DNA of 21,676 nucleotides. Source: a virus. Below the pieces are notes generated by a model that did not search any database, had not been told where the DNA came from, and was given only the letters and a program-made list of their open reading frames with translations. Position 1 is the first letter of the stretch. Every line of letters starts with the position of its first letter. The stretch covers positions 1-21,676 of IMG/VR virus record IMGVR_UViG_3300032116_001491; one strand, 5' to 3'. This document shows, piece by piece, positions 5,112-17,851 of the stretch. The position numbers and the translations under genes are program-made.

Positions 5112-5374
5112 GATGGCGGAACCTTGAACTCGAAATCGCCATGGAGATGCGCGGACACGCGTCGACCATGTGGGACGCATGGGCGATGTGGACGCCAACG
5201 CGCGACGAGGCGGCGCGTCAGGCCGACGCGAAGGCGGAAACATCAAGGCGAATCGCCGTGCTGCATGCGGTCGGAAAGACTCGCGAGGCACGGAAGCTCG
5301 AGTCGTACCAACGCGCAGCGCGAAAGCGGGCCGCAGATCGCAAAGCAAAGGCCAAGGGAAAATCGAATGGATAA
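5108..5374 (+). CDS. Small basic hypothetical protein, 88 aa
   Basis: The protein has an amphipathic N-terminal region with several Met and Trp residues (MRWRNLELEIAMEMRGHAST, then MWDAWAMW). Its C-terminal tail is very basic (AARKRAADRKAKAKGKSNG), which could contact nucleic acid. It overlaps the upstream gene by ATGA and the helicase start by 8 bases. Bases and codons become less GC-extreme from here into the helicase, so it may have travelled with that cassette. No family is recognised. Confidence 0.65.
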   Translation: MRWRNLELEIAMEMRGHASTMWDAWAMWTPTRDEAARQADAKAETSRRIAVLHAVGKTREARKLESYQRAARKRAADRKAKAKGKSNG

Positions 5375-6770
5375 TGCAGCGGATTACTCTTCTTTCGTGA
5401 GCGAGAAACTCACACGCGTCGCGCCGTCCGGCATCGACGTGCGTGTTGATCAAGTCGGCCTGTTCCAGTTCCAGCGTGACATTGTGCAGTGGGCGCTGCG
5501 TCGCGGTCGTTGCGCGATATTTGCGTCGACAGGACTAGGCAAGAGCAGGATGCAGGTGTCGTGGGCTAACTACGTCGCGGAACGCGCAAACGGAAACGTG
5601 CTCATCCTGGCGCCGCTTGCTGTCGCGTCGCAGACCGTTGACGAGGGCGCGAAGATCGGAGTCGGCGTGACACTGTGCCGCGACGCGAGCGACGTGCGTC
5701 CGGGAGTCAACATCACCAACTACGACCGGCTCCACCTGTTCGACACGTCTGCGTTCTCCGGTGTCGTGCTGGACGAGTCGAGCATCATCAAGCATCACAG
5801 CGCAAAAACACTACAGCTACTCATCGATGCGTTCGGTCGGACCCCATACCGGCTCGCGTGTACCGCGACGCCAGCGCCCAACGACTTCGTGGAGCTTGGC
5901 ACTCACGCTGAGTTTCTCGGCATCTGCACTCGCGCCGAGATGCTTTCCGAGTATTTCGTCCACGACGGCGGCGAGACGCAGAAGTGGCGACTGAAGGGCC
6001 ATGCGCGGAAGAAGTTCTGGGAGTTCGTCGCGTCGTGGGGCGCGCTCGTCCGTACGCCAGCGGACCTCGGCTACGACGGTTCGACGTATAACCTTCCGCC
6101 GATGCACGTTCACCACCACACGATCTCTGCGGACGACGCCACGACGCGCGCCGCCGGCCTGCTTTTCGCCGAACCCGCGTCCGGCCTCATGGAACGACGT
6201 CAGGCGCGACGCGCGAGCCTTTCCGCGCGAGTCGCCATGTGCGCCGACCTCGTCAACGCGCACGACGATCCATGGGTCGTATGGTGCGACCTCAACGACG
6301 AATCCGACGCGCTCACGTCCAAGATCCGGGGCGCTGTGGAGGTTCGCGGTTCGATGACCAGCGAGGAGAAAGAGTCCGCACTCGCTCGGTTTGCGTCCGG
6401 CGATGCGCGCGTGATCGTGTCGAAGCCGTCGATCTGCGGGTTCGGGTTGAACTGGCAGCACTGCGCGCATATGGCTTTCGTGGGCGTTACCGACTCGTGG
6501 GAGGCATACCACCAGGCGACGAAGCGCATCCATCGATTCGGGCAGAAGCGCGAATGCAACGTGCATGTGTTCGCATCCGAGCTCGAGGGCGCCGTCGTGA
6601 AAAACCTACAACGCAAGGAGCGCGACGCTGAGGTTATGTCGGCCGAGCTTTCGGCGGAGGTCGGCGAGTCCGTGCGCGCTCACGTGCGCGGGACGACGAG
6701 GGTGACGAATACGTACAACGCGACGGCTCGCATGGTCGTCCCGGAATGGCTGCAATCGGAGGAGGCGTGA
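5367..6770 (+). CDS. SF2 DEAD/SNF2-like helicase
   Basis: The 467-residue product is a superfamily 2 helicase or translocase. Walker A is ASTGLGKS (residues 53-60), motif Ia is around LILAPLAVASQT (79-90), the Walker B-type box is DESS (136-139), motif III is TATPAPND (166-173), and motif VI is in the C-terminal RecA domain as ATKRIHRFGQKR. The RIHRFGQ form is typical of SNF2-like enzymes. Phages often place such a helicase directly before a DNA methyltransferase, as here; the pair may act in replication or in DNA modification. I chose the ATG at 5367, with AAGGGAA upstream. Third-position G/C is lower than in flanking genes, which suggests separate ancestry. Confidence 0.9.
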   Translation: MDNAADYSSFVSEKLTRVAPSGIDVRVDQVGLFQFQRDIVQWALRRGRCAIFASTGLGKSRMQVSWANYVAERANGNVLILAPLAVASQTVDEGAKIGVGVTLCRDASDVRPGVNITNYDRLHLFDTSAFSGVVLDESSIIKHHSAKTLQLLIDAFGRTPYRLACTATPAPNDFVELGTHAEFLGICTRAEMLSEYFVHDGGETQKWRLKGHARKKFWEFVASWGALVRTPADLGYDGSTYNLPPMHVHHHTISADDATTRAAGLLFAEPASGLMERRQARRASLSARVAMCADLVNAHDDPWVVWCDLNDESDALTSKIRGAVEVRGSMTSEEKESALARFASGDARVIVSKPSICGFGLNWQHCAHMAFVGVTDSWEAYHQATKRIHRFGQKRECNVHVFASELEGAVVKNLQRKERDAEVMSAELSAEVGESVRAHVRGTTRVTNTYNATARMVVPEWLQSEEA

Positions 6771-6772
6771 CA

Positions 6773-7660
6773 ATGGACGTTCTGAATCAGGAAGTTGGCG
6801 AGAAGTTCGCGATCTACAACGGCGACTGCTGCGAGGTGCTGAGGGGGCTCCCGAGTGACAGCGCGCACTATTCTGTGTTTTCGCCGCCATTTTCGTCGCT
6901 GTACACGTACAGCAATAGCCCGCGCGACATCGGCAACGTGCGCAACGACGACGAATTCTTTCGGCACTTCGGATTCGCTATCGATGAGTTGTTTCGGGTG
7001 CTGAAGCCGGGCCGCCTGCTCTCGATGCACTGCATGCTCTTGCCGACCAGCAAGGAGCGCGATGGGTATATCGGCCTTCGCGATTTTCGCGGAGACCTCA
7101 TCAGGGCGTTTCAGGCGCGCGGCTTTATCTTCCATTCGGAGGTCGTGATCTGGAAGGATCCGGTGACCGCCATGCAGCGCACCAAGGCGCTCGGACTGCT
7201 CCACAAGACGATCCGCGCCGACTCGGCCATGTCACGTCAGGGCATCCCAGACTACCTCGTGACGATGCGGAAGCCCGGCAAGAACGACGAACCGATCACG
7301 CACACGCACGACGATTTCCCCGTCCAGCTCTGGCAGCGGTACGCATCGCCGGTGTGGATGGATATCAACCCGAGCGACACGCTCCAGTATCGCAGTGCCC
7401 GCGAGGACGACGACGAGCGCCACATCTGCCCGTTGCAGCTCGATGTCATCCGACGCGCCCTCAAGCTCTGGACGAACCCCGGCGACGTCGTGCTGTCGCC
7501 GTTCGCAGGCATCGGGTCGGAGGGACACGTCTCGATTCAGGAGGGTCGTCGGTTCGTCGGCGTGGAACTCAAGAAGTCGTACTACGAGCAGGCCCGACGC
7601 AACCTGATCGCCGCGTCCACGGAAACCGCGCCGCAGATGGCGCTTTTCGCGGGCGGGTGA
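6773..7660 (+). CDS. Beta-class DNA methyltransferase (N4-C or N6-A)
   Basis: The 295-residue protein is an amino-methyltransferase with circularly permuted (beta) motif order. The catalytic motif IV, SPPF (residues 37-40), lies near the N-terminus. The SAM-binding motif I, VLSPFAGIGSEG followed by GRRFVGVELKKSYYEQARR, lies near the C-terminus. The SPP form favours N4-cytosine methylation, but N6-adenine cannot be excluded. The ATG at 6773 is 7 bases after AGGAGG; a GTG at 6767 overlapping the helicase stop is a weaker alternative. It probably protects phage DNA from host restriction. Codon use resembles the helicase, so the two form one cassette. Confidence 0.92.
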   Translation: MDVLNQEVGEKFAIYNGDCCEVLRGLPSDSAHYSVFSPPFSSLYTYSNSPRDIGNVRNDDEFFRHFGFAIDELFRVLKPGRLLSMHCMLLPTSKERDGYIGLRDFRGDLIRAFQARGFIFHSEVVIWKDPVTAMQRTKALGLLHKTIRADSAMSRQGIPDYLVTMRKPGKNDEPITHTHDDFPVQLWQRYASPVWMDINPSDTLQYRSAREDDDERHICPLQLDVIRRALKLWTNPGDVVLSPFAGIGSEGHVSIQEGRRFVGVELKKSYYEQARRNLIAASTETAPQMALFAGG

Positions 7661-7661
7661 C

Positions 7662-7913
7662 GTGCCAATCGCAACGAAAGAAGAAATCGCAGCGATGCGC
7701 CTATCCGACGAGCAACTCGCCGATTACTCTCGCCTGGTGACGTCACATCGAGACTTCATCGAACGCATCGACAAAGTTGAGCGCGTGGTGTTCGCTTACG
7801 AGGTGGAGCATGCAACCCTTGTCGCGGTTGGGTCGGCCCTCGCGACGCTCGGCCATGGGCCCGAGGTCATCGGGAACGTGCGGCTCCTTCTCGGCGCGGA
7901 GGAGACGCCGTGA
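7662..7913 (+). CDS. Small helical hypothetical protein, 83 aa
   Basis: It starts at a GTG at 7662, one base after the methyltransferase stop (MPIATKEEIAAMRLSDEQLA). The central part (FIERIDKVERVVFAYEVEH) is helical, possibly coiled coil. No domain is recognised. The stop overlaps the replication gene by GTGA, so it may work with it or merely be coupled to it. The ribosome site (GGCGGGTGA) is weak. Confidence 0.65.
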   Translation: MPIATKEEIAAMRLSDEQLADYSRLVTSHRDFIERIDKVERVVFAYEVEHATLVAVGSALATLGHGPEVIGNVRLLLGAEETP

Positions 7914-8812
7914 GCCGCATCCGCAGCATCAAGCCCGAGTGGCTCGACGACGAGCGCATGGCGATGGCGAGCCCGGAGGCCCGCGTCCTGTCCATCGCCC
8001 TGATCATCTTGTCCGACGACTACGGCAACGGCCGCGCGAACCTCACCATGCTCGGCGGCCGAGCGTTCCCGGGACACGACAACCCGCGCGAGGTGCTCGC
8101 CAAAGCGCTCGACGAGTTGGTTTCGCTCGCGTTCGTCGTCCCGTACGAGGTTGACGGGCAATCCTATTACTCAATCCGCAACTGGGAAAAGCACCAACGG
8201 GTCGACAAGCCGGGCAAGCCTCACGTCCCGCCGCCTCCCGCGGACAAGCCCAAAAACAAGGCAAAACACCCTCGCGAGACTCTCGCGAAAATTCCCGGGA
8301 GTCTCGCGAAAGTTCCGGAGACTCTCGCGCCTGACCAGGACCAGGAAGGGATCAAGGACCAGGAGAGGGAGAGGGAGAGGGAGAGCGCGGGCGAGCCCGC
8401 GGCCCACGTCGTCGTCTCTCACGGTGCCGAGGCTATGCTCCGGTCCCTCGTCGCCCCGACCGATGCCGACGCGGCGGTGGCGGCGCTCGTCTCCGAGACT
8501 CGGCAGGCGGCCGGCGGCGCACCGTTCCGCGGCACCGGCTTCGCGGACCGCCAAGCCGTCCAGAAACTCGCTGAGTGGGCCGCGGCAACCTTGACGCCTC
8601 CGGACCGACTGCGGGATGTCCTAGTGGCTTTCTGGGCTGCCAAGGGCACGACGGCGCGCCTGTCGTGGCTCGTCGAGGAAGAGCCGGGGCGGTTCCTCGG
8701 CAAGCCGAAGGTCCGGGGCATGGCGCCCCCGGTGTCTCACGGGGAGTTCGCGCGACAGGTGGCCGAGGCAGGAGCAACGGAGGGCGGGTATGCAGCGATC
8801 GCATTCAAGTGA
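7910..8812 (+). CDS. Phage replication initiator-like protein (winged-helix N-terminus)
   Basis: The 300-residue product has the N-terminal signature of phage replisome-organiser proteins: RIRSIKPEWLDDERMAM, then SPEARVLSIALIILSDDYGN, a FPGHDNPREVLAKALDELVS helix and YYSIRNWEKHQRV near residue 96. Such proteins bind the origin and recruit a helicase loader. A low-complexity linker (residues about 101-165) contains three heptapeptide repeats (ETLAKIP, GSLAKVP, ETLAPDQ) and an ERERERE tract. The C-terminal domain (about 165-300) likely contacts the helicase or its loader. The GTG start overlaps the upstream stop, and the next gene, a DnaC-like loader, overlaps by 23 bases, which supports a joint role in initiation. 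Confidence 0.85.
   Translation: MSRIRSIKPEWLDDERMAMASPEARVLSIALIILSDDYGNGRANLTMLGGRAFPGHDNPREVLAKALDELVSLAFVVPYEVDGQSYYSIRNWEKHQRVDKPGKPHVPPPPADKPKNKAKHPRETLAKIPGSLAKVPETLAPDQDQEGIKDQERERERESAGEPAAHVVVSHGAEAMLRSLVAPTDADAAVAALVSETRQAAGGAPFRGTGFADRQAVQKLAEWAAATLTPPDRLRDVLVAFWAAKGTTARLSWLVEEEPGRFLGKPKVRGMAPPVSHGEFARQVAEAGATEGGYAAIAFK
8276..8385 (+). repeat. 21-bp direct repeats and polypurine tract; candidate origin
   Basis: Three tandem 21-bp units start at 8276, 8297 and 8318. Units 1 and 2 differ at 4 of 21 positions, and unit 3 matches the first 12 bases of unit 1 (GAGACTCTCGCG) before diverging. An A-rich stretch (8245-8270) lies just before them and a 25-base all-purine tract with AGAGGG repeats (8361-8385) lies just after. 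The repeats encode the heptapeptide repeats of the replication protein linker. The layout of iteron-like repeats inside the initiator gene is like the lambda origin inside gene O. Calling it an origin is inference. Confidence 0.5.
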
Positions 8813-9524
8813 GGGCTTCGGCGCGTTGATCGCGCAGGCGCAGGCGGCGGCGCAGGCCGCAGCCGAGGCGGAACTCTCGCGGGCGCTGGCCGCTGGGTTC
8901 GACTCGGTCGAGGCGTGGCACGCGCACCGGGACGAGCTCGAGCGGCTCCGGGCCGAGGCTCAGACGCGGGCGGCTCGCGAGGCGCACGCTCGGCTCGTGC
9001 TCGAGCAGGTCGGATCCCGGGTGAGCGACGACGTGGCGCGGCGGCTCGTCGCGGGCGAAGGGCTCGACGACACCCCGGCGCACGTCGCCGTGCGCGACTG
9101 GCTGGCGAGCGACCGGCCGACGCTCGTGCTCTCGGGCGGGACCGGCGTCGGCAAGACGGTCGCCGCGGTCCGCGCGATGCTCACCCGGCAGCGGGTGCAG
9201 TTCATCCGGGCCCTGCGCATCGGCGCGCACTTCGAGCGGTGGGCGAGCGACCGGGAAAGCAACGTCGTGGCGCTCGACCTCGGGGCGGACCTGCTCGTCG
9301 TCGACGACCTCGGGCAGGAGCCCGTCGAGGACCGTCGCGCGATGCCGGCGCTCGAGGAGGTGCTCGACTCGCGGCAGAGCGAGCGGACGCGGACGCTCAT
9401 CACCACGAACCTCGACGCGGACGCGATCCGGGATCGGTACTCCGAGCGCATCCGGTCGCGGCTCGCGCAGAACGCGAAGCTCTTCGCGGTGCCGGGCGAT
9501 GACCGTCGGAGGGTGCGGCGGTGA
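8790..9524 (+). CDS. DnaC-like AAA+ helicase loader
   Basis: The 244-residue product has a helical, Ala-rich N-terminal region (residues 1-75) and a C-terminal AAA+ ATPase core. Walker A is GGTGVGKT (116-123), Walker B is LLVVDDLG (168-175), sensor 1 is LITTNLDAD (203-211), and Arg residues in YSERIRSRL (217-225) fit the arginine-finger position. The DDLG box and TTN sensor are typical of DnaC/DnaI-type loaders, which place the replicative helicase at the origin. No replicative helicase is seen in the window, so the host DnaB may be the partner. The ATG at 8790 follows GGAGGGCGGG and overlaps the initiator gene by 23 bases. Confidence 0.9.
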   Translation: MQRSHSSEGFGALIAQAQAAAQAAAEAELSRALAAGFDSVEAWHAHRDELERLRAEAQTRAAREAHARLVLEQVGSRVSDDVARRLVAGEGLDDTPAHVAVRDWLASDRPTLVLSGGTGVGKTVAAVRAMLTRQRVQFIRALRIGAHFERWASDRESNVVALDLGADLLVVDDLGQEPVEDRRAMPALEEVLDSRQSERTRTLITTNLDADAIRDRYSERIRSRLAQNAKLFAVPGDDRRRVRR

Positions 9525-10429
9525 AGATTGGTTCCCTCTTCTCAGGCATCGGCGGCCTAGAGCTCGGACTAGAGCGCGCCGGCCTCGGCCACGTCGTGTG
9601 GCAGTGCGAAATCGATTCGTGGTGTCGCCAGGTGCTCGCGAAGCACTGGCCGGAAGCGACGAGGTACGAGGATGTTCGATCGGTCGGCCGAGCAAATGCA
9701 GCTCCCGTGGATGTCATCTGCGGCGGGTTCCCATGCCAGGACGTCAGCCTCGCAGGCAAGCGAGCTGGGCTCGACGGCGCCCGCTCCGGGCTCTGGTTCG
9801 AGTACCGGCGAATCGTCGAGGAGCTCGCGCCGTCGGTCGTCGTCATCGAAAACGTGCTCGGACTGCGGACGTCTGGACTGCGACGAGTGCTCGCGGACCT
9901 TGCCGCTCTCGGGTTCGATGCGGAGTGGTCGGATCTTGCAGCTTCCGACGTCGGAGCTCCGCACCGTCGCCGGCGCCTGTTCATCGTTGCTACCCACCCC
10001 GAGCGCCTCAAGCTACGGAACGAACCGGAGTGGCTCGGGCGGGCGTGTCGGGCCGCTGCGGCCGAGTCTCGCGACGATGGCGAAGGGTGGGATGCTACCG
10101 ACGCCTGCGGCCCGGGACGGCGGGAGAGGCGGGGCGAGGAACCCGCACGGGCAGTTCTCGCCGAGCCTGCCGGATCTGGCGGTGCGCGGGATGCTGCCGA
10201 CGCCGACGGTGAAGGGGAACCACAATCGCGCGGGGCTTTCTCCGAGCAGTGGCGACGGGCTCGCGACGGCAGTTGGCGGCCGCCTGTCAGCCCGATTCGT
10301 CGAGTGGATGATGGGATTCGACGTGGATCACACGGACGTCGACTGAAGGCCCTCGGAAACGCCGTGGTGCCGCAGTGCGCCGAGGTCATCGGGCGCGCGC
10401 TTCTCGGCGCCATGCAGGAGGCAGCATGA
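9521..10429 (+). CDS. C5-cytosine DNA methyltransferase
   Basis: The 302-residue product is a C5-MTase. Motif I is FSGIGGLELGL (7-17), the catalytic Cys lies in GGFPCQDVS (C72), motif VI is ENV (110-112), motif VIII is GAPHRRRRLFIVA, and motif X is LKALGNAVVPQ near the C-terminus. It transfers methyl from SAM to cytosine C5, probably masking phage DNA from restriction. The GTG start overlaps the loader stop. Odd feature: between motifs VIII and X this frame is a low-complexity R/G/E/A-rich stretch, while the +1 frame over the same bases carries conserved methyltransferase-like sequence (see findings). Either the recognition region has been frame-shifted or overprinted, or two compensating indels are present. 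Confidence 0.88.
   Translation: MKIGSLFSGIGGLELGLERAGLGHVVWQCEIDSWCRQVLAKHWPEATRYEDVRSVGRANAAPVDVICGGFPCQDVSLAGKRAGLDGARSGLWFEYRRIVEELAPSVVVIENVLGLRTSGLRRVLADLAALGFDAEWSDLAASDVGAPHRRRRLFIVATHPERLKLRNEPEWLGRACRAAAAESRDDGEGWDATDACGPGRRERRGEEPARAVLAEPAGSGGARDAADADGEGEPQSRGAFSEQWRRARDGSWRPPVSPIRRVDDGIRRGSHGRRLKALGNAVVPQCAEVIGRALLGAMQEAA
9981..10346 (+). other. Conserved methyltransferase-like sequence in the +1 frame of the C5-MTase gene
   Basis: In the +1 frame, with no start codon at the boundary, the sequence reads SSLLPTPSASSYGTN, then RPSLATMAKGGMLPTPAARD, MLPTPTVKG, and AVGGRLSARFVEWMMGFDVD before a TGA at 10344-10346. Three LPTP motifs (9987-10001, 10092-10106, 10191-10205) and FVEWMMGF (10296-10319) match what phage C5-MTases show between motifs VIII and X. 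The main frame reads the same bases as RVDDGI where this frame reads VEWMMGF. Whether this frame is translated is unknown. Confidence 0.55.
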
Positions 10430-14699: not shown

Positions 14700-16079
14700 A
14701 TGGCCGACGACCGCATCGACGGGTTCCTAAACGCGCTCTCGGGCCTCGGGGGTTCCGTCGACCGGCTCTCGGGCGCGACCGTCGCCAGCATCCGCAACAG
14801 CATCGCCACGCAGAGCGTCCTCGAAACGCTGTACTACGAGGACGACCTCGCGGCGCGCATGGTCGACGCCATCATCGACGACGCCGTGCGGCAGGGCATC
14901 GAGCTTGACCGCGAGCAGAGCGTCGACGACGGCGCGGCGGCCGACTCCGGCACCGACGTGAAGCAAGCGGGCTCGGCCATCCTGCGCCGGATGCGCGAGT
15001 TGCGCGCGCTCGAGCGCGTGACCGAGGGCGCCCGGTGGGGTCGGCTCTACGGCGGCGGGGCGGTGCTCATCGTCCTCGACGACGGCAACCACGCGGCGCC
15101 GGTTGCGCTGGGTCGGAAGATCGTGTCGCTCTCGGCGCTCGACCGCTGGGAGATGACGCCGGTGTCCTACTTCGAGGACGTGATGTCGCCGCAGTACGGC
15201 GAGGTCGAGACGTGGCGCGTGAACCGGCGCGGGGCCCGGACGACGGACACGCTGGTCGTGCACGAGTCGCGGCTCCTGCGCTTCGAGGGCCTGCCGGTGT
15301 CGTCCATCGAGCGGGCGCGCCAGGACGGGTGGAGCCTCTCGGTGCTCACGCGCGCGTACGAGGTGCTGCGCGACGGCCAGCAGAACTGGCGCAGCGTGTC
15401 GAACATCCTCTCGCAGGCGACGCAGCCGATCTTCAAGATCAAGGGCCTCGCCGAGATGATCGCCAACGGGCAAGACGAGCAGCTCACGCGGCGCATGGAG
15501 GCGGCGAACCTCGTCCGGTCCATCCTCCGCGCGGTGCTCATCGACGCCGAGGGCGAGGAGTTCAAGTACGAGAACGCATCACTCGGCGGACTCGACGTCA
15601 TCCTCGACAAGACCTGGCAGCGGCTCGCGGCGGCGGGCGAGATGCCGGTGACGCGCCTCATGGGCATGTCGCCCGCGGGCCTGAACGCGACCGGGGAGTC
15701 GGACGTGCGCGGGTGGTACGACTCGGTGCAGAGCTACCGCGAGCAGGACCTGGGCCCGCAGATCGAGCGGCTCGTGCGCATCGTGGCGGCCGAGCTGGGC
15801 GACCAGACGCCGAGCGAGTGGGTCGTGCGCTGGCCGTCGCTCTGGCAGATGTCGCCGACCGAGCAGGCCGAGCACGAGGCGAAGATCGCGGGCACGGACA
15901 AGACCTACATCGACGCGGGCGTGCTCCTGCCCGAGGAGGTCGCGGTGACCCGCTTCGGCGGCGGGACGTACGACAGCGGCCCGGTGCAGATCGACGCGAG
16001 CCTGCGCGAGACGCCGGCCGAGCCCGCTGCGCCTCCTGCGCCGCCCGTCGAGCCCCCGCAGGCGCCCGAGGCACCGTGA
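14700..16079 (+). CDS. Portal protein (DUF1073/Acb1-like family)
   Basis: The 459-residue protein resembles DUF1073-type portals: an N-terminal helical region (NSIATQSVLETLYYEDDLAA, MVDAIIDDAVRQGIEL), GRLYGGGAVLIVLDDG, LRFEGLPVSS and a conserved segment LMGMSPAGLNATGESDVRGW followed by YDSVQSYREQDLGPQIERLV. Portals form the dodecameric ring through which DNA enters the head. The C-terminus is Pro/Ala-rich and probably flexible. It follows terL by 31 bases with only a weak ribosome site (GGTGACGGTG) and overlaps the head morphogenesis gene by GTGA, the usual order for tailed phages. Confidence 0.9.
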   Translation: MADDRIDGFLNALSGLGGSVDRLSGATVASIRNSIATQSVLETLYYEDDLAARMVDAIIDDAVRQGIELDREQSVDDGAAADSGTDVKQAGSAILRRMRELRALERVTEGARWGRLYGGGAVLIVLDDGNHAAPVALGRKIVSLSALDRWEMTPVSYFEDVMSPQYGEVETWRVNRRGARTTDTLVVHESRLLRFEGLPVSSIERARQDGWSLSVLTRAYEVLRDGQQNWRSVSNILSQATQPIFKIKGLAEMIANGQDEQLTRRMEAANLVRSILRAVLIDAEGEEFKYENASLGGLDVILDKTWQRLAAAGEMPVTRLMGMSPAGLNATGESDVRGWYDSVQSYREQDLGPQIERLVRIVAAELGDQTPSEWVVRWPSLWQMSPTEQAEHEAKIAGTDKTYIDAGVLLPEEVAVTRFGGGTYDSGPVQIDASLRETPAEPAAPPAPPVEPPQAPEAP

Positions 16080-17851
16080 CGGCTGCGGCGGTCCGGGCGG
16101 CCTACGTGCGGGCCCGCGGCGGCCGGCTGCGCAAACGCTCGGCCGAGCCCCCGAAGCTGCCGACGGGCGCCGAGATGGCGTACGTCCGGGCGCTGCGGGC
16201 CGCCGTGCGCCGGATGCGGGACGAGGTGCTCGCCCGGCTCGAGCCCGGCCTGAAGCGGGCGCAGGAGGCCGAGCGGCAGGACGCGACCGACGACCTGCGC
16301 GCGATCCTCCTGTCGATGGTCGGCGACGACGCGCTCGTGGCCGCCCTCGCCGGGGCCGAGACGCTCGCCACCATCGCGACCGTGTGGGGCCGGGTCGAGA
16401 CGCACAACCGCGGGCAGATGGAGCGCGTCCTCGGCGTGACCGGGCCGCTGCTCGACCTCGACCTGCGCCCCGAGCTCGACCGCTTCCGCGCCGAGAACGT
16501 CCGGCTCATCCGGTCCATCGGCCCCGAGGCTCTGTCCTCGGTGCTCGAGGAAGTGACCGAGGCGCAGCGGACCGGGATGCGGGTCGAGGAGCTTCGGGCG
16601 CGCATCGCCGAACGCTTCGAGGTGTCCGGCAGCCGGGCAGAGTTGATCGCCCGCGACCAGATCCTGAAGGCGAACGCGGACCTCTCGCGGACCCGGATGC
16701 AGCGCGTCGGCGTCACCCGGTACCGCTGGAGCACCAGCCGGGACGTGCGGGTACGGGCCGACCATGCCGCCCTCGAAGGCACGATGCAGACCTTCAGCGA
16801 CCCTCCGGTGGTCGACCAGCGGACCGGCCGGCGCGCGAATCCAGGGGTCGACTTCCAGTGCCTACCCGCGCACGAACACGTTCGGGTCGCGCACGGTGTA
16901 CGCCGGGCGTTCCGTCGTCCGGTTTCCGGGCAGGAACTTGTTCGCCTCGTCACGGCGGAAGGGCTCCGACTGGAAGTGACACCGAACCATCCGGTGCTGA
17001 CCGGATCCGGGTGGAAGGCTGCGCAGCATGTCGAGGTCGGCGATGACGTGTTCAGCGTTCACGGCGAGGGCGTGTTCGCTGGCGACCAAGACGTAGAACA
17101 CGGTCCACCCACGGCCAGCGAGGTATTCGAAGCGTGCGCGCTGCTTGGGGTTCGTGAGCGGGTTGCCGCCTCCGGCCCGCAGTTCCACGGCGACATGGCC
17201 GACGGCGAAGTCGAGGTTGTACTGCTCGACGGGGTGCTGCTCGGTGAAGTCGATCCCGCGCTCACGCAACAGGCGCGCGAGTTGCTCCTCGCCGACGCCG
17301 ATGCGCCGCGTCTTGGTAGCCGCGAGTCGGCAGCGGTGGGCGTGGCTCTTGGGCTTCCCTCGCACGGCATCATGGGCCGCGCTCGCGAGGCGCTTGCGCT
17401 CCTGCTCCGGCGTGCGCGCCATGCGGACGAACATCGCCTCGGACCGCCCGCGCAGCCGAACCCCGGCGCGAGCGAGGGCCGCCGCGAGAGTCCGGCGCTC
17501 GATGCCGTATCGGTCGGCGAGCGCCTTCAGGCTGAAGCCCTCGACGTAGAGGCGTGCCGCCTCCTCGCGCGGGAAGTCCTTCGCGTTGCTGGCTGGCCTG
17601 TAGACGCGGGACGGCCCGCCGACGCGGAGCAGCTTGAGGCGGATGCCGTCCTCGCTGGCGCCAACGGCGAGCGCGATCTCGCGGCAGGAGCGGCCCTCAC
17701 GACGAAGCGCCATCGCGTCGTCGACTTGTCGCGCAGTCAGTACTCGGGGCATGTGTTCAACCTCGAAACGGGGTGTGGCTGGTATTCGGCTGACGTGGTC
17801 GTCCACAACTGCCGATGCGTAGCGATTCCCATATTCGATGATGACGACTGA
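16076..17851 (+). CDS. Head morphogenesis protein (Mu gpF/SPP1 gp7-like) with intein
   Basis: The extein is a minor head protein. Residues about 183-261 show the conserved module SRAELIARDQILKANADL, GVTRYRWSTSRDVRVRADHA and ANPGVDFQ, and the C-terminus ends CRCVAIPIFDDDD. The precursor is 591 residues. Residues 262-578 are an intein inserted between Q261 and the first Cys of the CRC motif; removing it rejoins DFQ to CRCVAIP and gives a 274-residue mature protein of normal size. Such proteins act inside the procapsid near the portal during assembly. The GTG start overlaps the portal stop. The frame is open through the whole intein, as splicing requires. Confidence 0.92.
   Translation: MTAAAVRAAYVRARGGRLRKRSAEPPKLPTGAEMAYVRALRAAVRRMRDEVLARLEPGLKRAQEAERQDATDDLRAILLSMVGDDALVAALAGAETLATIATVWGRVETHNRGQMERVLGVTGPLLDLDLRPELDRFRAENVRLIRSIGPEALSSVLEEVTEAQRTGMRVEELRARIAERFEVSGSRAELIARDQILKANADLSRTRMQRVGVTRYRWSTSRDVRVRADHAALEGTMQTFSDPPVVDQRTGRRANPGVDFQCLPAHEHVRVAHGVRRAFRRPVSGQELVRLVTAEGLRLEVTPNHPVLTGSGWKAAQHVEVGDDVFSVHGEGVFAGDQDVEHGPPTASEVFEACALLGVRERVAASGPQFHGDMADGEVEVVLLDGVLLGEVDPALTQQARELLLADADAPRLGSRESAAVGVALGLPSHGIMGRAREALALLLRRARHADEHRLGPPAQPNPGASEGRRESPALDAVSVGERLQAEALDVEACRLLAREVLRVAGWPVDAGRPADAEQLEADAVLAGANGERDLAAGAALTTKRHRVVDLSRSQYSGHVFNLETGCGWYSADVVVHNCRCVAIPIFDDDD
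16859..17809 (+). mobile_element. Intein (Hint domain), 317 residues, in head morphogenesis gene
   Basis: The intein starts with Cys (CLPAHEHVRVAHG, block A) and has a clear block B, EVTPNHPVLTGSGW, with the TxxH residues. It ends with block F/G GHVFNLETGCGWYSADVVVHN directly followed by Cys+1 of the host protein. All residues expected for standard splicing (Cys1, block B His, terminal His-Asn, Cys+1) are present, so it is probably active. The segment between the N- and C-terminal splicing blocks (residues about 68-270) shows no endonuclease in the sense frame. The same DNA encodes a nuclease on the opposite strand. Boundaries follow from restoring the DFQCRC motif. Confidence 0.93.
16862..17752 (-). 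CDS. Antisense-encoded putative homing endonuclease (Vsr/EDxHD-like) within the intein
   Basis: This 296-residue minus-strand protein begins MPRVLTARQVDDAMALRREG, with GAGG 7 bases before the ATG. Two HTH segments follow: residues 8-45 and about 61-102 (EEAARLYVEGFSLKALADRY). The nuclease-like domain is at about 150-241: GVGEEQLARLLRERGIDF, EQYNLDFAVGHVAVELRAGG and GRGWTVFYVLVASEHALA, with E155, D181 and E190 in acidic positions of the Vsr/EDxHD homing endonuclease fold. The His usual after the last acidic residue is not obvious, so activity is uncertain. Its TAG stop lies opposite intein codon 2. Codons have high third-position G/C, like neighbouring genes. It is in register with the sense codons. 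Confidence 0.8.
   Translation of the reverse strand: MPRVLTARQVDDAMALRREGRSCREIALAVGASEDGIRLKLLRVGGPSRVYRPASNAKDFPREEAARLYVEGFSLKALADRYGIERRTLAAALARAGVRLRGRSEAMFVRMARTPEQERKRLASAAHDAVRGKPKSHAHRCRLAATKTRRIGVGEEQLARLLRERGIDFTEQHPVEQYNLDFAVGHVAVELRAGGGNPLTNPKQRARFEYLAGRGWTVFYVLVASEHALAVNAEHVIADLDMLRSLPPGSGQHRMVRCHFQSEPFRRDEANKFLPGNRTTERPAYTVRDPNVFVRG

Follow-up and report, generated by a model that had tools for sequence, protein, structure and literature searches.

Canonical full-length inteins (e.g., PI-PkoII) consist of a two-part Hint splicing domain around an endonuclease region that is in frame with the host protein and released by splicing. A different arrangement was reportedly described by Dassa et al. 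in 2009 in the form of 'fractured genes' with split inteins, where a Vsr-like endonuclease is said to be encoded as a separate gene between the split halves. A group I intron is the home of I-Bth0305I (PDB 3r3p), an EDxHD/Vsr-like homing endonuclease (PMC3943268). Antisense homing endonuclease genes are known from nuclear group I introns of myxomycetes (PMC9548176), and a phage methylase gene holds a hidden out-of-frame endonuclease of the HNH type within an insertion whose host frame stays open (PMC11855218).

Here we analyse a window of 21,676 nucleotides, a 21.7-kb virus record (IMG/VR IMGVR_UViG_3300032116_001491), in which we put at about 85% the probability that a MuF-like phage head protein carries a class 1-type intein with its homing endonuclease (HEN) as a separate, antisense-nested gene, uncoupled from splicing. 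The unit resembles canonical inteins in the two-part Hint domain around an endonuclease region and in its mobility logic, but its endonuclease is antisense. As in 'fractured genes', a Vsr-like nuclease is tied to intein sequences in phage-type DNA; here, however, it is nested within an unbroken, sense-open intein. HEN shares with I-Bth0305I the nuclease domain (profile E 7e-7, fold probability 1.00) and the extended DNA-binding modules on the same chain, but lies antisense in an intein rather than in a group I intron and has two helix-turn-helix (HTH) segments. In both the myxomycete introns and this locus the endonuclease is on the strand opposite the host gene; the intron, however, is RNA and what is inserted in it need not code for anything, whereas here each of the two strands has to remain open and the two products are predicted to fold. 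The methylase insertion likewise hides an endonuclease in another frame of an open insertion and spreads among phages; that endonuclease, as described, is on the same strand, of the HNH type and without a splicing domain, whereas here we have the opposite strand, an EDxHD type and a real intein. We could not find an antisense endonuclease within an intein described in the literature searched; the nesting thus appears new for inteins, with out-of-frame and antisense intron endonucleases already known. A 2025 actinobacteriophage preprint (Gosselin et al., bioRxiv 10.1101/2025.01.02.630785), whose title, as cited in PMC11855218, speaks of a 'non-canonical architecture', may overlap with this finding, possibly for the Gordonia members.

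The head gene, its intein and the antisense gene

The window holds a head gene cluster encoding terminase, portal, MuF-like, DUF2213, cement and major capsid proteins. Upstream of these, genes for a helicase-like protein and for two DNA methylases, one of the N6/N4 type and one of the C5 type, lie at positions 5124-10429. The MuF-like gene is split by a 317-aa intein inserted just before the first Cys of the C-terminal CRC motif (Table 1). The first-pass annotation had proposed complete splicing blocks and an own frame free of nuclease, and both points held. The class 1 residues Cys1, block B TPNHP, Asn317 and Cys+1 are all present, and their counterparts are conserved in relatives (C1 91/92, block B His 93/93, Asn 94/94, Cys+1 94/94). 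In Pfam the sense protein matched Phage_Mu_F and, weakly, Intein_splicing; the intein family profile retrieved solved inteins, PF14890 was matched in 47 of 51 members, and the structural matches of the sense intein were to inteins/Hint in all or most cases, with modest E values but probabilities close to 1. Neither the Pfam search of the sense protein nor the family profile searches matched a nuclease family to the sense-frame intein. The intein is thus not one with an in-frame homing endonuclease that these searches recognise, the nuclease being encoded on the opposite strand. In the sense structure model, intein residues 1-125 and 281-317 are mostly confident, whereas most of 146-277 falls below pLDDT 50.

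Table 1. Coordinates of the intein-bearing head gene and of the gene nested on its opposite strand
Feature	Position	Strand	Basis
MuF-like head gene	16076..17851	+	GTG start; sense frame open throughout
N-extein of MuF-like head protein	16076..16858	+	Phage_Mu_F 5e-14, phageSPP1_gp7 6e-12 (Pfam)
Intein, 317 aa, Cys1 to Asn317	16859..17809	+	Splicing blocks; family profile
Cys1; block B TPNHP; Asn317; Cys+1	16859..16861; 16979..16993; 17807..17809; 17810..17812	+	
Sense linker, intein residues 126-280	17234..17698	+	Mostly predicted unstructured; selected mainly on antisense strand
C-extein (CRCVAIPIFDDDD) and stop	17810..17851	+	Cys+1 and CRC motif conserved among relatives
Putative antisense homing endonuclease (HEN) gene	16862..17752	-	ATG, 296 codons, TAG; homology, fold, family
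Shine-Dalgarno GAGG, 8 nt before ATG	17761..17764	-	Complement of block F codons; position common to family
First HTH, HEN residues 7-43	17624..17734	-	AlphaFold2 helices and HTH profile matches
Second HTH, HEN residues 62-95	17468..17569	-	HTH_23/HTH_38 (below threshold), AlphaFold2
Vsr/EDxHD-like nuclease domain, HEN residues 148-262	16967..17311	-	DUF559, 3r3p match, residue invariance
Predicted catalytic residues E155; D181; E190	17288..17290; 17210..17212; 17183..17185	-	Invariance in family
Doubly constrained motif: sense FHGD over antisense VAVE (holds E190)	17183..17194	both	Codon counts, 94 loci

The opposite-strand ORF with its Shine-Dalgarno sequence is as the first-pass annotation had it, and the G/C-ending codons noted there as typical of the phage genes are borne out by a GC3 of 0.86, against 0.95 in the MuF N-extein and 0.97 in the portal gene. 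Each antisense codon lies exactly over one sense codon, such that the HEN residue number is 299 minus that of the intein residue. In 70 of 94 loci the antisense start codon ATG is the reverse complement of the His codon of block F, with the Shine-Dalgarno sequence opposite the codons of this block after the His. Promoter scans for the antisense gene stayed at chance level and gave no convincing candidate.

Two HTH segments and a Vsr/EDxHD-like nuclease had been read in this ORF, a reading to be given up if profile searches matched no nuclease; nuclease profiles and the I-Bth0305I fold were both matched. In Pfam the protein reaches DUF559 with 21.6 bits, just over the gathering cut-off of 20.6, with HTH_23 and HTH_38 below threshold. 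Profiles of the HEN family retrieve I-Bth0305I ('mobile intron protein') with E values of 2.9e-7 and 6.9e-7. An AlphaFold2 model built from an alignment with 53 family members has a mean pLDDT of 90.1, and in the PDB it is structurally closest to the catalytic domain of I-Bth0305I (E 8.3e-4, probability 1.00), Vsr (1cw0) coming further down; 3r3p is thus the best match in both profile and structure, pointing to a Vsr-like alpha/beta nuclease fold. Read in antisense, E155, D181 and E190 are retained in 93-94 of 94 loci; the invariant E155 and D181, together with E190, may belong to an E-D-H-D active-site set. The WH that follows E190 in the majority of the family is absent from the window's protein.

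A mobile family spread among phages

A tblastn search with the antisense protein recovered 124 phage records (best E 2e-37) from phages of Salmonella, Gordonia, Pseudomonas, Klebsiella, Acinetobacter, Vibrio, Edwardsiella, Haemophilus and other hosts, and most of the matches listed fall under head/minor capsid or hypothetical genes on the other strand. Of two genome scans for relatives, one found none and the other two. Adding IMG/VR contigs to the tblastn records gave a survey set of 135 loci with 99 distinct antisense proteins, some of whose automatically called starts are approximate. The first-pass annotation had suggested comparing the strand of the nuclease in homologous inteins: the homologues are conserved in the antisense frame, and in 96 of the 99 distinct relatives the in-register sense frame is stop-free across the antisense gene, whereas the remaining two opposite frames hold 3-47 stops. 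As the loci were collected by similarity to the antisense protein, sense openness was no selection criterion. Three loci depart from this: L022 is a free-standing gene in an Acinetobacter phage, L052 is a broken copy, and L122 has an open intein, its apparent stop being part of a gene call that extends too far. Ten N-exteins sampled in Pfam comprised four Phage_Mu_F, one Phage_min_cap2, one portal protein and four with no match.

Lying fully inside the intein in the window and in the 96 loci, HEN is not a free-standing homing endonuclease of the usual kind. The only free-standing member adjoining MuF among the distinct loci is that of Acinetobacter phage IME285 (L022:455-2055), which is convergent with an intact, intein-free MuF gene and overlaps its 3' end by 7 nt; a split intein is ruled out there, the MuF gene being intact and the endonuclease gene alone. 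In Rhizobium phage RHph_TM61 (L032:1111-1797) a free-standing gene annotated as a homing endonuclease lies within a tRNA gene cluster, and its protein combines a related nuclease domain with zinc-finger-like cysteine motifs. At another locus (L082:371-883; L095 is its unbroken relative) an internal stop breaks the antisense endonuclease in an open sense intein, as the homing cycle predicts, and L021 has an antisense gene without the HTHs.

The joined exteins of a Salmonella member match 1431 phage records, of which 1076 align over 80% or more of the query at a single place and are hence counted as intein-free, although a few of the 1076 are intein-bearing alleles joined from two pieces; the intein-free alleles inspected were contiguous (e.g., VSt10, 99.5% aa). 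Gordonia phages likewise have intein-free MuF alleles at the same site. Affeca and Fosterous have an identical intein (0 of 948 nt differ), with as many as 9 differences per 50-nt bin in the flanks; between L027 and L028, 38 of 816 nt differ in the intein against 8-24 per 50 nt in the flanks. Similarity of HEN correlates with that of IntN at 0.55 and with that of the host MuF at 0.28-0.29, values that are descriptive as the pairs are not independent. Common intein-free alleles together with identical inteins in diverged genes indicate that the unit is mobile. Spread of the kind expected of homing is seen indirectly, in these alleles and in transfer between diverged genes.

Dual coding, selection and rival readings

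In the observed register a sense TTA, CTA or TCA is an antisense stop and vice versa. Of the Leu/Ser codons in the antisense gene, 0 of 3480 are of these three kinds, against 529 of 2920 in the exteins of the same loci. They reappear in the sense frame just beyond the antisense start (100/2692), and free-standing relatives use them freely (12/39 in L022, 15/36 in L032). Under free synonymous recoding, sense stops that cannot be avoided would average 3.3 and 1.5 per 300 codons in the other antisense registers, with zero in 18 and 28 of the 99 proteins, respectively, against none in the observed register, which may be the reason why only this one occurs.

Selection was measured in 13 independent pairs of relatives, the window's own copy having no close relative, by counting differences at sense codon positions 1/2/3. 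For the N-extein the counts were 363/249/868, for the linker 604/186/365, for the IntN overlap 278/98/284 and for the stretch past the antisense start 17/6/51. Constraint therefore acts on the antisense strand in the linker, on the sense strand in the exteins and on both strands in IntN, in agreement with the low-confidence linker and confident intein ends of the sense structure model. About 125 codons are dual-coding for domains folded on both strands. Per-column counts over 94 loci concur: splicing residues are fixed in sense with the sense wobble free, and catalytic residues are fixed in antisense with the antisense wobble free. Conservation in the sense frame only, which had been named as the outcome that would count against the antisense gene, is thus not what the per-strand comparison returned. 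Of the antisense VAVE codons, the one for Ala reads GCC in 87 of 94 loci, and GTG encodes the Val beside E190 in 84 of 94. The sense FHGD opposite VAVE is nearly invariant and lies within the confidently predicted part of the intein.

These data bear on whether the antisense ORF is a by-product, the conserved protein being the sense intein and G+C-rich codon use keeping a seemingly conserved mirror frame open. Long antisense frames are indeed common at the 70% GC of the window, and the antisense C-terminus overlaps conserved splicing blocks, so that part of its conservation is a mirror effect. Yet the in-register nesting persists in the most AT-rich loci (34-45% GC), where TTA/CTA/TCA number 0 of 932 in the antisense gene against 237 of 756 in the exteins, and linker changes sit on the antisense wobble base, with 366 codons sense-changing but antisense-silent against 100 sense-silent but antisense-changing. 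Moreover, it is the antisense protein that folds at a pLDDT of 90, against a sense linker below 50, and its nuclease homology extends to proteins outside inteins. A chance open frame is rejected on the codon-position data and the absence of TTA/CTA/TCA, and the by-product explanation as a whole is extremely improbable.

A genuine antisense gene could still have been repurposed, e.g., as a DNA-binding regulator of head gene expression that has lost homing, as its two HTH modules and several PHROG matches to regulators and DNA-binding proteins might suggest. This is made very unlikely by the retention of the three acidic residues across the family and by an intein that passes from one diverged gene to another and that many close relatives lack. 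It is also unlikely, although homing-cycle theory expects decay, that the window's copy is a decayed, inactive nuclease within a family that is otherwise correctly read: the broken gene of L082 and the HTH-less one of L021 show that such copies exist, but the window's ORF is full length, with its start, Shine-Dalgarno sequence, three invariant acidic residues and confident fold. An active, antisense-nested homing endonuclease accordingly remains our preferred reading.

Proposed homing cycle and annotation of the family

At the level of sequence, the two frames, selection on both strands, the nuclease homology, the intein-free alleles and horizontal transfer are established; the transcription, translation, splicing, cleavage and cleavage site of the system are inferred. 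The sense transcript would yield a head precursor protein, from which intein residues 1-125 and 281-317, folded with one another, would excise the intein together with the unstructured linker between them. Leftward transcription would supply a second message, to be translated from the Shine-Dalgarno sequence and ATG complementary to block F to give an EDxHD/Vsr-like homing endonuclease with two HTH modules. The target of this enzyme would be MuF alleles without the intein, cut close to the conserved CRC codons, and the whole intein and HEN unit would be copied as the break is repaired.

It is probable that these loci represent a widespread class of phage inteins, in which opposite strands of one DNA segment encode, codon on codon, a splicing domain and a homing endonuclease that both fold, with E190 and the translation start in the complement of conserved intein motifs, and which is distinct from the in-frame, free-standing and intron-borne architectures. 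The antisense HEN would break the textbook coupling whereby production of an intein endonuclease goes along with, and is limited by, that of its host protein, and makes it testable whether separate expression lets homing follow a schedule other than that of the late head gene. Antisense dual coding with two products predicted to fold, and with selection measurable on each strand across many phages, is rare, and the family provides such a case.

Annotation has overlooked this nuclease family in phages of Salmonella, Klebsiella, Gordonia, Vibrio and others. In phage Snoke the intein is recognised and the antisense gene is not listed. In Salmonella phage vB_StyS-sam (L033:2395-2972), short hypothetical genes are annotated on both strands inside the intein, one of which is a HEN fragment.
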